From: Thermoplasmata archaeon
GTDB taxonomy: Archaea > Thermoplasmatota > Thermoplasmata > Thermoplasmatales > Thermoplasmataceae
Reading direction: 5' to 3'
Assembly: GCA_021800105.1 (NCBI GenBank)
Contig: JAJYZI010000001.1
Span: 1-64,000 of the forward strand
Length of the DNA: 64,000 bases
The translations under genes were made by a program, and so were the position numbers. This document shows positions 58,744-64,000 of the stretch, piece after piece. The stretch's first letter is position 1. Every line of letters starts with the position of its first letter. Below the pieces are notes generated by a model that saw nothing but the letters and a program-made list of their open reading frames with translations, was not told where the DNA came from and ran no database searches.

Positions 58744-59682
58744 TCAGTGAATTGTTATCAGTTCAAGCCTGGTTGGTTCAGCTGTCCGGATGACAACGTC
58801 TCCACTTGGCTCTATTATTGATCCTTCCCTAAATCTCCTGTTTTCCGGAAGTATCATACCAGATCCTGAGTTGAACCTGACCACGGATTGCCCAGGTATA
58901 TGGATGGTGGGCTCCTCCTCGGCTCGGATGAAGTAGTCTGTTATTGTACTCTTCTTGTCGGTCATTACTGTCTTATAGTAACCCCAGGGAGAATCTTCCC
59001 TGTTAGAGTATTCCTCCCTTATTGCCTCAAGATCCTTTTCGCTGTCTATTCCCATCCAGAATGCGTCCTCCATATAGGCGCCTATGTTTTTATTTGAAGC
59101 AAGTCGGGGAAAAACCGTTGTCTCAAGCTCCTTGTCGGGATAGCTTTCGAAAAAGTAATCAAATATGTCCTTTTTGAAGATGTAAATGCCTGCATTCATG
59201 TATGAGTTGATGAATGGCTTTTCCTTGAACCTAGTTACTGTATCACCAAAGATTTCCAGGATGCCATAAGGGCTTCTCATCTTAACTGCAAAAATAACGG
59301 CTCCATATGAGGTATTGCCCGCAAATTTAACCATAGCCTTGAAGTTCATATCGGTAACTGTATCGCCGTTCCTGAGCATTACGTCCTGGTCCTTTCTGTG
59401 CTCGAGGAGGTTTCTCATAGAATACAAGGTGCCAAGTGGTTTCTCCTCCCTGAAATATTTAATCTTCATGTCTTTATATTTTGGCGTTAGATACTCTTCG
59501 ATTTTCTCTCCCAGGTGACCAGAGAGAATGTAAAGTTCGGTTATGCCAATAGATCTGAAATCGCTGATCTGCCTGTCAAGTATAGTGAAGTTCTCCTTGA
59601 TCTGGATCATGGACTTTGGTATGTCGTTTGTTATTGGCTTTAAACGTTTACCGTAACCACCTGCAAGAATTGCACCGATCAT
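58744..59682 (-). CDS. Sugar-phosphate nucleotidyltransferase
   Basis: Nucleotidyltransferase of 312 residues. The N-terminus AILAGGYGKRLKPITNDIPKSMIQI is the G-x-G-x-R-L...PK signature of sugar-1-phosphate nucleotidyltransferases, MLRNGDTVTDM carries the metal Asp, and FKEKPFINSYMNAGIYIF is the EKP-x-N-G-type sugar site. The last 60 residues (EPTIHIPGQSVVRFNSGSG) form a short C-terminal domain of strands. The sugar (glucose, mannose or GlcNAc) cannot be told; together with the PGI/PMI enzyme it suits nucleotide-sugar supply for surface glycans. Confidence 0.85.
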   Translation of the reverse strand: MIGAILAGGYGKRLKPITNDIPKSMIQIKENFTILDRQISDFRSIGITELYILSGHLGEKIEEYLTPKYKDMKIKYFREEKPLGTLYSMRNLLEHRKDQDVMLRNGDTVTDMNFKAMVKFAGNTSYGAVIFAVKMRSPYGILEIFGDTVTRFKEKPFINSYMNAGIYIFKKDIFDYFFESYPDKELETTVFPRLASNKNIGAYMEDAFWMGIDSEKDLEAIREEYSNREDSPWGYYKTVMTDKKSTITDYFIRAEEEPTIHIPGQSVVRFNSGSGMILPENRRFREGSIIEPSGDVVIRTAEPTRLELITIH

Positions 59683-59735
59683 ATCTGGTAATAGTGAGTT
59701 GGTTTAAATTTTTAACAGGCCATTTTCAAATATAT

Positions 59736-61181
59736 TCAGTTTTCTCGATTACTTTTGGCAAGGTATGCAAGCATGACCGGAAAAACGGCCCATACCAGAC
59801 CCGTAACTATGACCAAGGACAACGGGAAAGATAAGTCGGATGGAATATAGTTGGGTTGAAAGTAAGATGCTATTCCAGGAGCAGCTGAATTAGCGTATAA
59901 TTCCAGAAAGTTTGTGGGGCTCAGTAAATAAATGATCTGAATGTAAGCGGGGAGGTTGGAAGGATTGGTTCCATATGTTGAAAGTATGGCACCTCCAGCG
60001 AATAAAGAGCCAAGTGCAAATAATATAAAAAGGGAAAATGTGAAATAGAAACCGTATCTGCGAAACCGGGAAAATAAGACCGAAAAGCCCATAATTGAAA
60101 TCATGGCAATTAAGATTCCAAAAAACACAGATTCTATCAATACAAGTGGGAGTCCCCGTCCGGATAGCAGATAGAAACTTATGTAGTCGAAGGCAACGAT
60201 TCCTATCAACGCCAGTACCATGACAATTGCACTGCTGCCGAACCTGTCAAGCATCAACCTTCTCTTTGAGATCGGCTGTGAAAGAACAAGGTCCAGGGTT
60301 CCGTTTGCCAGCTCCCGGGAATACATCATTTCGATAACAATAATGGCAGTTGTGGTAATTAGAAAACCCGTAATTGCCCAGATTTCACCCATAAAACTGA
60401 TTGTGTTCGCCAGATCAGGCGGCGGCGCATAAACCGAGCCACTAAATACATAAGGTGATGAATTATTGGAATTATTATCTGTGTACAGAAAAAATGCCTT
60501 ATCAGGATTGGATGGCCCGCCAAAAATTCCGTTGACAGTAAGAAGGTGAAAATGCGAGTATGTCCCCACTAGTGTAAGGTTTGTCGGTTTTTGTGAGAAC
60601 GAGTTTGGTGTGATGTTTGTGCTGTATAGCGTGACAGGAGGGGCTGAAGTCCCACTTGGCCCGAAATATGCAATAAAAGGTATGGAGTAATATGGGTTGG
60701 AGGCATTTAGTACGAGTTGTGGGGAAATTGAATAGCTAATGTTGCTGACTGCTAGATTCCTGAAAACACTCTGTCCAGTGAATGAGAAATCTTTAGATAG
60801 CACATGAATATTGAAAATTACACCACTCAATTGCGAAAAGTTCCCCAGTGTCAGATTTGCATATCCTTCATCATTGCTTGAAATGTTCGGAAAATTCAAG
60901 TTTTGCGGAATGTTAGGTGACCCGACCTTACCGAATGCGGTTATATTTATTTCAATACCATTGAGAGGCTGCCCCATGCAGTTCATTGAATAGGTTGATA
61001 GATTTACGGTGCCATTGTCATCGTAAATCCCTGACAGGACGTAATTCTGCTCGTTGAGTGGCACCGATGCGGACTCGTAGATAACAAGAAACGAAATTAT
61101 CATGATAAATGCGAGCAGGAATATGAAGGCGGGTTGCTTTACAATCCTCTTAATATAATAAGAAAGCCCTTTTATTATCAT
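59736..61181 (-). CDS. ABC-2 type permease with large outer domain
   Basis: Membrane subunit of an ABC exporter, 481 residues. One N-terminal helix (about 15-37) is followed by an extracytoplasmic region of about 210 residues rich in N, S and P, then about six helices in the C-terminal half. MMYSRELANGTLDLVLSQPISKRRLMLDRF is the typical ABC-2 coupling segment preceding the membrane core. It overlaps the ATPase gene by 4 nt (ATGA). The substrate is unknown. Confidence 0.85.
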   Translation of the reverse strand: MIIKGLSYYIKRIVKQPAFIFLLAFIMIISFLVIYESASVPLNEQNYVLSGIYDDNGTVNLSTYSMNCMGQPLNGIEINITAFGKVGSPNIPQNLNFPNISSNDEGYANLTLGNFSQLSGVIFNIHVLSKDFSFTGQSVFRNLAVSNISYSISPQLVLNASNPYYSIPFIAYFGPSGTSAPPVTLYSTNITPNSFSQKPTNLTLVGTYSHFHLLTVNGIFGGPSNPDKAFFLYTDNNSNNSSPYVFSGSVYAPPPDLANTISFMGEIWAITGFLITTTAIIVIEMMYSRELANGTLDLVLSQPISKRRLMLDRFGSSAIVMVLALIGIVAFDYISFYLLSGRGLPLVLIESVFFGILIAMISIMGFSVLFSRFRRYGFYFTFSLFILFALGSLFAGGAILSTYGTNPSNLPAYIQIIYLLSPTNFLELYANSAAPGIASYFQPNYIPSDLSFPLSLVIVTGLVWAVFPVMLAYLAKSNREN

Positions 61182-62083
61182 TCGTGAGCACCTGTCTTCT
61201 GTGCAAAGTACTCTTCCAGTATATTGTCTGTTGAAACAAACTCTGTAACCAGGTATCCTGCTTTAACCAGTTCAGCGTTTATCGACGAAGGATCCCGCCT
61301 GACGCCTGAAACATTTATTTGATCCTGTCCTGTGGATACTGTGCCATATGTCTTGAGACGCTCGAGTAATTTTTCGTCAGGATTTGATACCCTCAACCTG
61401 ATAGTGGACTTACCCTGAGAGAGTAAGTCCGCTAAAGTAACCGGTTCGGTCGTCTCTCCGTTGATGATAAGAACCACGCGGTTTGCTATTGACTGGAGCT
61501 CGCTTAGCACATGTGAACTAAGCAGGATCCCATGCCCGGATGATCTCAGCTCAGAAATCTTGTCCTTCATGAATTTTATACCCTCAGGATCAAGGCCGTT
61601 GAACATTTCGTCGAAGAGGTAATATTTAGGATTTCCAAGCATTGCGATCGCAATTGATAAGCGTTTTCTCATGCCCATAGTCAATTTTGTTACTTTCAAC
61701 CTCTCAGCTCCGGAAAGACCCACTCTAATGAGAACATAGTGGACAGTTCTTTCCAGATTAACTCGATCTATTCCTCGCAGTGTAGCGAAGTACTTGACCA
61801 AGTCGAAGATTGAGCTCTCTGTTTCGAAGAGCGGGTTTTCCTGGACCCAGGCAATCTTTTCTGAAACAAATTCTTTGGCACTTGCCGGATCAACCCCATC
61901 AACGAGGACCTTTCCCGCATGAGGTGAAAGAATACCCGCCAGCGTTTTTATGGTCGTGGTCTTCCCTGAACCATTCAGGCCAGCAAGGCCAAGCACTTCC
62001 CCTTCCTTAATGCTAAGAGTAAGATCTCTAAGAACCAGTTTTTTGCCATAACCTACGGAAACATGGAGTGCATCTAAGCTAAT
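61178..62083 (-). CDS. ABC transporter ATPase, probable AUU start
   Basis: ATPase of an ABC-2 exporter, about 301 residues if begun at 62083. Motifs: Walker A LNGSGKTTT, Q-loop WVQENPLF, signature KLTMGMRKRLSIAIAM (TMGMR variant of LSGGQ), Walker B YYLFDEMFNGLDPEG and switch SSHVLSEL. The track begins at a GTG at 61996, which cuts off the first strands. The frame continues upstream through LHVSVGYGKKLVLRDLTLSI, the normal N-terminus with the A-loop Tyr, but has no ATG, GTG or TTG before its upstream stop. An ATT at 62083 gives the usual family length and follows AAGGTGG by 6 nt. The gene is 23 nt after the fusion enzyme. Confidence 0.88.
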   Translation of the reverse strand: MSLDALHVSVGYGKKLVLRDLTLSIKEGEVLGLAGLNGSGKTTTIKTLAGILSPHAGKVLVDGVDPASAKEFVSEKIAWVQENPLFETESSIFDLVKYFATLRGIDRVNLERTVHYVLIRVGLSGAERLKVTKLTMGMRKRLSIAIAMLGNPKYYLFDEMFNGLDPEGIKFMKDKISELRSSGHGILLSSHVLSELQSIANRVVLIINGETTEPVTLADLLSQGKSTIRLRVSNPDEKLLERLKTYGTVSTGQDQINVSGVRRDPSSINAELVKAGYLVTEFVSTDNILEEYFAQKTGAHE

Positions 62084-62089
62084 TCCTTG

Positions 62090-62096
62090 CCACCTT
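62090..62096 (-). promoter_or_regulatory. Ribosome-binding site deciding an AUU start
   Basis: AAGGTGG on the minus strand lies 6 nt before the ATT at 62083. It matches the archaeal anti-Shine-Dalgarno well and has optimal spacing for that codon, while the GTG used in the track (61996) has GGAAGGGG-like purines within the conserved IKEGE codons and would remove the A-loop. Confidence 0.55.
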
Positions 62097-62106
62097 CTGA
62101 CAGTAT

Positions 62107-64000
62107 TTATCTGCCCTTGAACTCAGGCTCCCTCTTCTGGAGGAACGCTGAAATTCCCTCTTTTAAATCTTCGGTTCCATATACAAGTCCCATGGATATG
62201 GCTTCCATTGTGAGACCGTCATCCAGAGAAGTTTCAGATCCCTTGTTAATCAGAAGTTTCGCAAGGTAAGCAGCACCTGGAGCGACCTTCCTGGAAAGAT
62301 CATGGGCAAAATTCAGCACATCGTCATCTATTGTCTCTGCCCCGAACGTTCGTGTCACTATGCCCATATCAAGAGCCTCTTTACCGGTTATCCTTTCAGC
62401 TGTGAGGATTAGATAAGATGCGCGTGAAGAACCAATGAGCTTTGAAAGACGCTGTGTACCTCCCCATCCTGGCACGAGTCCTCTCTGAAGCTCCGGAAAC
62501 CCTATCTTTGCATCCGGGGACGAGACCCTGATGTCGCATGCAAGTGATAGTTCGAAGCCACCGCCAAGCGCGTATCCCTTGATTTCTGCTATAGTTATTT
62601 TGTTCATTTCCGAGAGGAGGCGAAAAACAGATTGCCCGTGCCTGGAGGCTTGCATGAAGTCTATACCTCCAGAGAAAAACTGTGAAAGTTCAGCCCCAGC
62701 AGAAAACACTGTACCTTTGCCTGTTACCACGACGACATTGATTTCCTTGTCTTCCCTTATTTCAAGGAATGTTTTCTCAAGACCATCCAGTACTGCAGCA
62801 TTTAGGAGGTTAAGCCTTCCGTTGTTGAGATAAACAATTGCAATCTTGTCCTTTTTGACCATGAATACGGGGTCGTTACCCTGGGTTTGAGTCTCCGGGG
62901 ATACAGGCTTATTTCCTTGCTTTGGAGTAATCTTTCCGGAAATGGCTTCCTTCAGTTTTCCTTCCGCAATTGATTTGGAGGGCGCGAAAACGGTGGATTC
63001 GAACCTTGCACTCAGGTCTTCCAGCTTTTTCTTTATTTCAGCATTGGTCAATCCCTGAGCAACAGATATTGGACCGAATGGTCTGTTCATGCCAAGGCGG
63101 ACTCCAGTTTCTATGTCCTCAGGCGATGCTACACCTTCTTCGATCAGCTTTACTGCCTCATTGAGCTCTATTGCCAGAACGTCCATGAGCTCCACCTTGC
63201 TTGACGGCTCCCCGGATGGGATCTGTGCCTTGCCATTTTCCCAGGTATAAAAACCATGTCCGGTCTTCCTACCAAGCCTGTTCTGTTCCATCATCTGTTT
63301 GTAGATCATGCATTTTCCGTATTCAGGAGATAGCTCCTTTGCATAATATTCGAGGGAGTGAACCACTGTATCAATGCCAACATAGTCCATCAACTCATAC
63401 GGGCCCATAGGAAGACCCTGCGATCTGGCAAAGATATCAATTGATGAAGGCGAATCGATCTTTCTATCAAGCAGAAGACAAAAGAAGAGGCTTTCAGGAG
63501 CATTGATCCTGTTTACCACAAAACCTGGGGAATCTTTTACCACTCGAATGGGTGTCTTTCCTATCTTTCGGGATAGATCAAAGACTGCCTCGAATGTCTG
63601 GTCATCAGTCTTTTCACCTTTAACAACCTCGACAAGCTTAAGTACAACTGGTGGGTTGAAGAAGTGCATACCGACGATTCTATGCGGTCTTACGCTTCCA
63701 TCCTGCAGCTCAGTGATCCTGAAGTTGGAAGTATTTGATGCTATAATAGCATCTGGAGAACATGAAGACTCGACCTCCCTTATGACACTTTTCTTTATGT
63801 CAAGCACCTCAGGAACAGCTTCAATTATAATGTCAGCTTTTGCAACTGAGTTCCTGATATCGGTCGAAAATGTAAGCTTTGCAAGGGCATCGTTCATAAC
63901 AGGTTCATTTAACTTACCGCTCTCCTTCATCCTTGAGAGACTAGAAAGGACGTTCTGCCTGGCACGATCCAGAAAGTCCTGTGAGACGTCGTTAAGCACA
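62107..64000 (-). CDS. 3-hydroxyacyl-CoA dehydrogenase/enoyl-CoA hydratase fusion (partial)
   Basis: Bifunctional beta-oxidation enzyme, cut by the right edge of the window so that the N-terminal NAD-binding glycine motif is missing. The visible 630 residues give the rest of the dehydrogenase (IIEAVPEVLDIKKSV, SNTSNFRITEL, GMHFFNPPVVLKLVEVV with the catalytic His and following Glu), its C-terminal domains (PGFVVNRI, GPYELMDYVGID), then the crotonase domain (GKGTVFSAGAELSQFF, YALGGGFELSLACDIRV, GLVPGWGGTQRL). Dehydrogenase-first order is the archaeal fusion type, opposite to bacterial FadB. It oxidises fatty or branched acyl-CoA and leads the operon with the ABC exporter. Confidence 0.93.
   Translation of the reverse strand, partial: VLNDVSQDFLDRARQNVLSSLSRMKESGKLNEPVMNDALAKLTFSTDIRNSVAKADIIIEAVPEVLDIKKSVIREVESSCSPDAIIASNTSNFRITELQDGSVRPHRIVGMHFFNPPVVLKLVEVVKGEKTDDQTFEAVFDLSRKIGKTPIRVVKDSPGFVVNRINAPESLFFCLLLDRKIDSPSSIDIFARSQGLPMGPYELMDYVGIDTVVHSLEYYAKELSPEYGKCMIYKQMMEQNRLGRKTGHGFYTWENGKAQIPSGEPSSKVELMDVLAIELNEAVKLIEEGVASPEDIETGVRLGMNRPFGPISVAQGLTNAEIKKKLEDLSARFESTVFAPSKSIAEGKLKEAISGKITPKQGNKPVSPETQTQGNDPVFMVKKDKIAIVYLNNGRLNLLNAAVLDGLEKTFLEIREDKEINVVVVTGKGTVFSAGAELSQFFSGGIDFMQASRHGQSVFRLLSEMNKITIAEIKGYALGGGFELSLACDIRVSSPDAKIGFPELQRGLVPGWGGTQRLSKLIGSSRASYLILTAERITGKEALDMGIVTRTFGAETIDDDVLNFAHDLSRKVAPGAAYLAKLLINKGSETSLDDGLTMEAISMGLVYGTEDLKEGISAFLQKREPEFKGR

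Follow-up and report, generated by a model that had tools for sequence, protein, structure and literature searches.

The window analysed here, a stretch of 64,000 nucleotides from the assembly G000 of an uncultured Thermoplasmata archaeon, carries on its reverse strand the ATPase and permease genes of an ABC-2 exporter, which follow a gene for a fused 3-hydroxyacyl-CoA dehydrogenase/enoyl-CoA hydratase (Table 1). With 92.4 bits against a curated cut-off of 25, the PF00005 match places the ATPase among the ABC ATPases. Its stop codon (61180-61178) and the start codon of the permease gene share an ATGA that is conserved in the related genomes G002 and G005, and translational coupling of the two genes is likely. 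The pair resembles other ABC-2 exporters, with a DrrA/NosF-like ATPase and an ABC2_membrane_2 permease, in gene order and domains, and only the start codon is unusual.

The ORF caller placed the start of the ATPase at a GTG at 61996. According to the initial annotation, the frame extends 29 codons further upstream, is devoid of ATG, GTG and TTG between the preceding stop codon and this GTG, and appears to start at an ATT at 62083 behind the motif AAGGTGG. The sequence features named there were confirmed: the GTG is codon 30 counted from the ATT, canonical start codons (ATG, GTG or TTG) are absent across the 42 codons from the TGA at 62125-62123 to the GTG, and a spacer of 6 nt (CAAGGA) separates the ATT from AAGGTGG. 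Gene callers commonly take only ATG, GTG and TTG as start codons, so that archaeal genes of this kind are truncated or missed.

For the comparison, six genomes of the genus including G000 were used, none of which is more than 90% complete; G000 itself is a 98-contig assembly with a completeness of about 71%. A close ortholog of the ATPase was present in three of the five other genomes, with protein identities of 91% (G002), 91% (G005) and 47% (G001), and was not found in G003 and G004.

Table 1. Genes and sequence elements around the ATPase start
Feature	Position	Strand	Remarks
ABC-2 exporter ATPase	61178..62083	-	301 codons and a stop, counted from ATT; PF00005 domain; ungapped alignment (47% identity) to the G001 ortholog, whose M1 corresponds to I1
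ATT start codon	62081..62083	-	ATG at this column in G002 and G001, ATT in G005
Shine-Dalgarno motif AAGGTGG	62090..62096	-	pairs with the 3' end of the organism's own 16S rRNA, GGATCACCTCCT (read from G000); duplex -8.7 kcal/mol; AAGGTG kept in G005
GTG, codon 30, start of the ORF caller, rejected	61994..61996	-	GTT in G005; a start here would cost the protein 29 conserved residues at its N-terminus, among them the A-loop Tyr region
In-frame stop TGA upstream	62123..62125	-	common to own genome, G002 and G005
3-hydroxyacyl-CoA dehydrogenase/enoyl-CoA hydratase fusion, upstream gene (listed part)	62107..63999	-	TAA at 62109-62107, 23 nt before ATT
Exporter permease, PF12679	59736..61181	-	its ATG overlaps the TGA of the ATPase (ATGA, 61178-61181)

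Start column and coding constraint of the ATPase gene

At the start column of the ATPase, the genes of G000 and G005 read ATT and those of G002 and G001 read ATG. Both outcomes that had been envisaged for related genomes, conservation of the ATT and its replacement by ATG, were thus observed. The sequence GGA ATT AGC TTA GAT of the window and GGG ATG AGC ATA GAG of G002 are aligned without gaps at the ATT/ATG, and a gap-free correspondence of the first residues was also obtained with G001 in spite of the low identity. In G005 the region reads TGA AGG TGT CAA TAT ATT AGC CTA GAA with an in-frame TGA just upstream of the ATT, and the first canonical codon of this frame is codon 52, past the Walker A motif.

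Over the ATPase gene, G000 and G005 show 14% DNA divergence and a dS of 0.67. Codons 2-29 contain nine synonymous differences and a single nonsynonymous one (D/E), whereas the stretch of seven codons that precedes the ATT contains no synonymous and five nonsynonymous differences, one of them a stop (Fisher p = 0.002, from small counts). Judged by these substitutions, coding constraint begins directly after the ATT. The dN/dS ratio of the ATPase is about 0.06 for G000 versus G005 as well as for G000 versus G002, values indicative of strong purifying selection, which argues that the gene is alive; the ATT-started gene is as constrained as the ATG-started one. The AUU at 62083 is very probably the start codon of the ATPase, because it occupies the column of the orthologs' AUG, coding constraint starts after it and no canonical in-frame start lies upstream of the conserved coding sequence. 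The earlier proposal of an AUU start is therefore strongly supported.

Probable initiation at the AUU codon and competing readings

The predicted Shine-Dalgarno pairing of the ATT-started genes amounts to -8.7 kcal/mol in G000 and -8.3 kcal/mol in G005, and that of the ATG-started genes to -6.6 kcal/mol in G002 and -11.3 kcal/mol in G001. For ATG genes of the window genome the median is -4.45 and the lower quartile -7.0 kcal/mol, which puts the ATPase ahead of at least three quarters of them. Belinky et al. (PMC5622118) described stronger Shine-Dalgarno sequences at suboptimal start codons as a tendency of GUG and UUG genes. The good Shine-Dalgarno sequence found here fits a weak start codon, and compensation was not seen across the four orthologs. 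A scan for promoters and terminators returned nothing above chance, the scan being of a bacterial type that is ill-suited to archaea.

During initiation, AAGGUGG would pair with the 16S tail and thereby place the initiator tRNA over the AUU. As a near-cognate codon, AUU would keep the first two base pairs, so that methionine would be inserted and the predicted N-terminus would be (M)SLDALHVSVGYGK. Translation of the permease would probably be coupled to that of the ATPase via the start/stop overlap, so that both exporter proteins would be kept at a modest level by the weak start. Most likely, the AUU stems from a one-base AUG/AUU change that was tolerated thanks to the good Shine-Dalgarno sequence. 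This account as a whole, with Shine-Dalgarno-led initiation at 62083, probable coupling to the permease and a tolerated codon change instead of a dedicated switch, is very likely. Weak start codons can lower protein synthesis, and from this general knowledge a throttling of exporter synthesis by the AUU is plausible; since two orthologs use ATG, a requirement for low expression is not shared across the orthologs.

A known AUU start is that of the bacterial gene infC, whose autoregulation rests on the proofreading of start codons by its product IF3. The likeness to infC drawn in the initial annotation holds for the codon, as AUU serves as a natural start codon in both cases; the AUU start itself is thus of a known kind, seen here in an archaeon. 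The autoregulatory part does not transfer, because an exporter ATPase does not proofread start codons: in place of an initiation factor the archaeal gene encodes an ABC ATPase, which closes no autoregulatory loop, and the weak codon is not strictly conserved, as G002 and G001 have ATG.

A dedicated regulatory device for exporter synthesis, controlled by a fidelity factor or by RNA structure, is a rather unlikely reading of the AUU. Such a device would agree with the retention of the codon across the divergence of G000 and G005 and with the overlap of the permease start and the ATPase stop, but not with the ATG of two orthologs, and the RNA around the start is not more stably structured than its shuffles (z about +0.6). 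A precedent exists in sigR of Streptomyces, also a functional gene with a noncanonical start (GTC), a bacterial regulator gene whose level is controlled through the start codon, with demonstrated repression by IF3 (PMC5472188). No link of the ATPase to a fidelity factor was found. The archaeal fidelity factor aIF1, which according to one study makes complexes on non-AUG mRNA less stable (PMC6237735), is encoded in this genome by a gene with a normal ATG start.

Translation from the GTG at 61996, giving a protein of 272 residues, is very improbable. This GTG is the first canonical codon of the frame in the window and is retained at the aligned codon of G002, but it cannot be the common start because G005 has GTT there. 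Furthermore, G002 and G001 carry ATG upstream of it at the ATT column, coding constraint acts on codons 2-29 in three species, and the nucleotide-binding domain of the shortened product would be without its first strands and its A-loop. That the ATT is a misread or misassembled ATG deserves very little credence: the draft genomes are fragmented and the G005 contig has a coverage of about 7x, but two assemblies made independently agree on this base although their sequences of the gene diverge at 14% of sites. That frameshifting or readthrough joins the ATPase to the upstream hydratase in one fusion protein, as the 23 nt between the two genes on the same strand might suggest, is scarcely credible in view of the TGA just before the ATT of G005, the differing hydratase stop codons among species and the further stop that a readthrough frame soon meets. 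The out-of-frame ATG at 62073 was also considered as a frameshifted start and rejected, since it is not conserved (AAG in G005, AGG in G002).

Probable noncanonical starts across the genus

AUU starts arise rarely in the survey of Belinky et al. (PMC5622118), where 61,358 ancestral AUG starts yielded a single switch to AUU and 5,080 GUG starts likewise one. The evolutionary event is the same as that considered here; theirs is a broad survey of start-codon switches, whereas the present study establishes a single start from the identity of its column and the onset of coding constraint. A review of archaeal initiation (PMC7531240) gives the start codons as AUG, GUG and UUG, and searches of the open literature returned no direct report of an archaeal AUU start.

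About 515 kb of G000 were sampled, and 369 kb aligned to G005 or G002 yielded 314 genes with alignable 5' ends. The conserved canonical codon seen first was ATG in 229, TTG in 44 and GTG in 41 genes, a tally that approximates start usage by the first aligned canonical codon and counts two exceptions via internal codons. In these two genes, the ATPase and an FtsJ/RlmE-type methyltransferase (PF01728, TIGR00438), conserved coding sequence extends upstream of every canonical codon. The count of two is a minimum, because the test overlooks any gene that happens to have a canonical codon upstream. Other loci flagged by the scan (L097, L108 and L232) were discarded as antisense shadows of real frames.

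The methyltransferase gene adjoins gcvH (L099:9519-10112, G000:C4; L182-L187), and none of the six genus genomes provides it with a canonical start (ATG, GTG or TTG). In each genome the gene has GTA-NNN-ACG-GAN at the N-terminus, following GGGGAG or a similar sequence, with the ACG five bases after GGGGAG. By inspection, the ACG column is ATG in four genomes of other genera (M-N-R-K-D versus T-D-R-R-D). From this alignment, ACG is probably the start codon; a GTA start or a -1 frameshift from gcvH may be alternatives. More generally, the genus might put up with or make use of near-cognate start codons (AUU, ACG) at a low but constant frequency, the roughly 314 genes supplying at least two conserved cases. 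The choice of start codon by aIF1 would then be less strict here, or serve a control function, outside the AUG, GUG and UUG usually given for archaea. This generalization is tentative and rather doubtful. The archaeal AUU and the conserved probable ACG offer test cases for the start-codon strictness of aIF1 and the archaeal 30S subunit.

Mosaic relatedness and the history of the ATT

The ATT occurs in two genomes only, G000 and G005, both metagenome-derived or incomplete. Contig-wide aligned DNA identity is higher between G000 and G002 (87.6%) than between G000 and G005 (78.5%), but the order is reversed for the ATPase gene, with 86.3% to G005 and 84.1% to G002. The identity of G000 to these two genomes is thus a mosaic that varies gene by gene. 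The ATT may be ancestral with a reversion in G002, may have originated twice or may have been shared by recombination; whichever history applies, the ATT-bearing gene is well preserved in both carrying lineages. A contrast between two neighbouring genes of the window points to homologous recombination among species of this genus: the gene at 58744-59682 shows 93% DNA identity to G005 versus 85% to G002, and the adjoining permease gene (59700-61150) is closer to G002.
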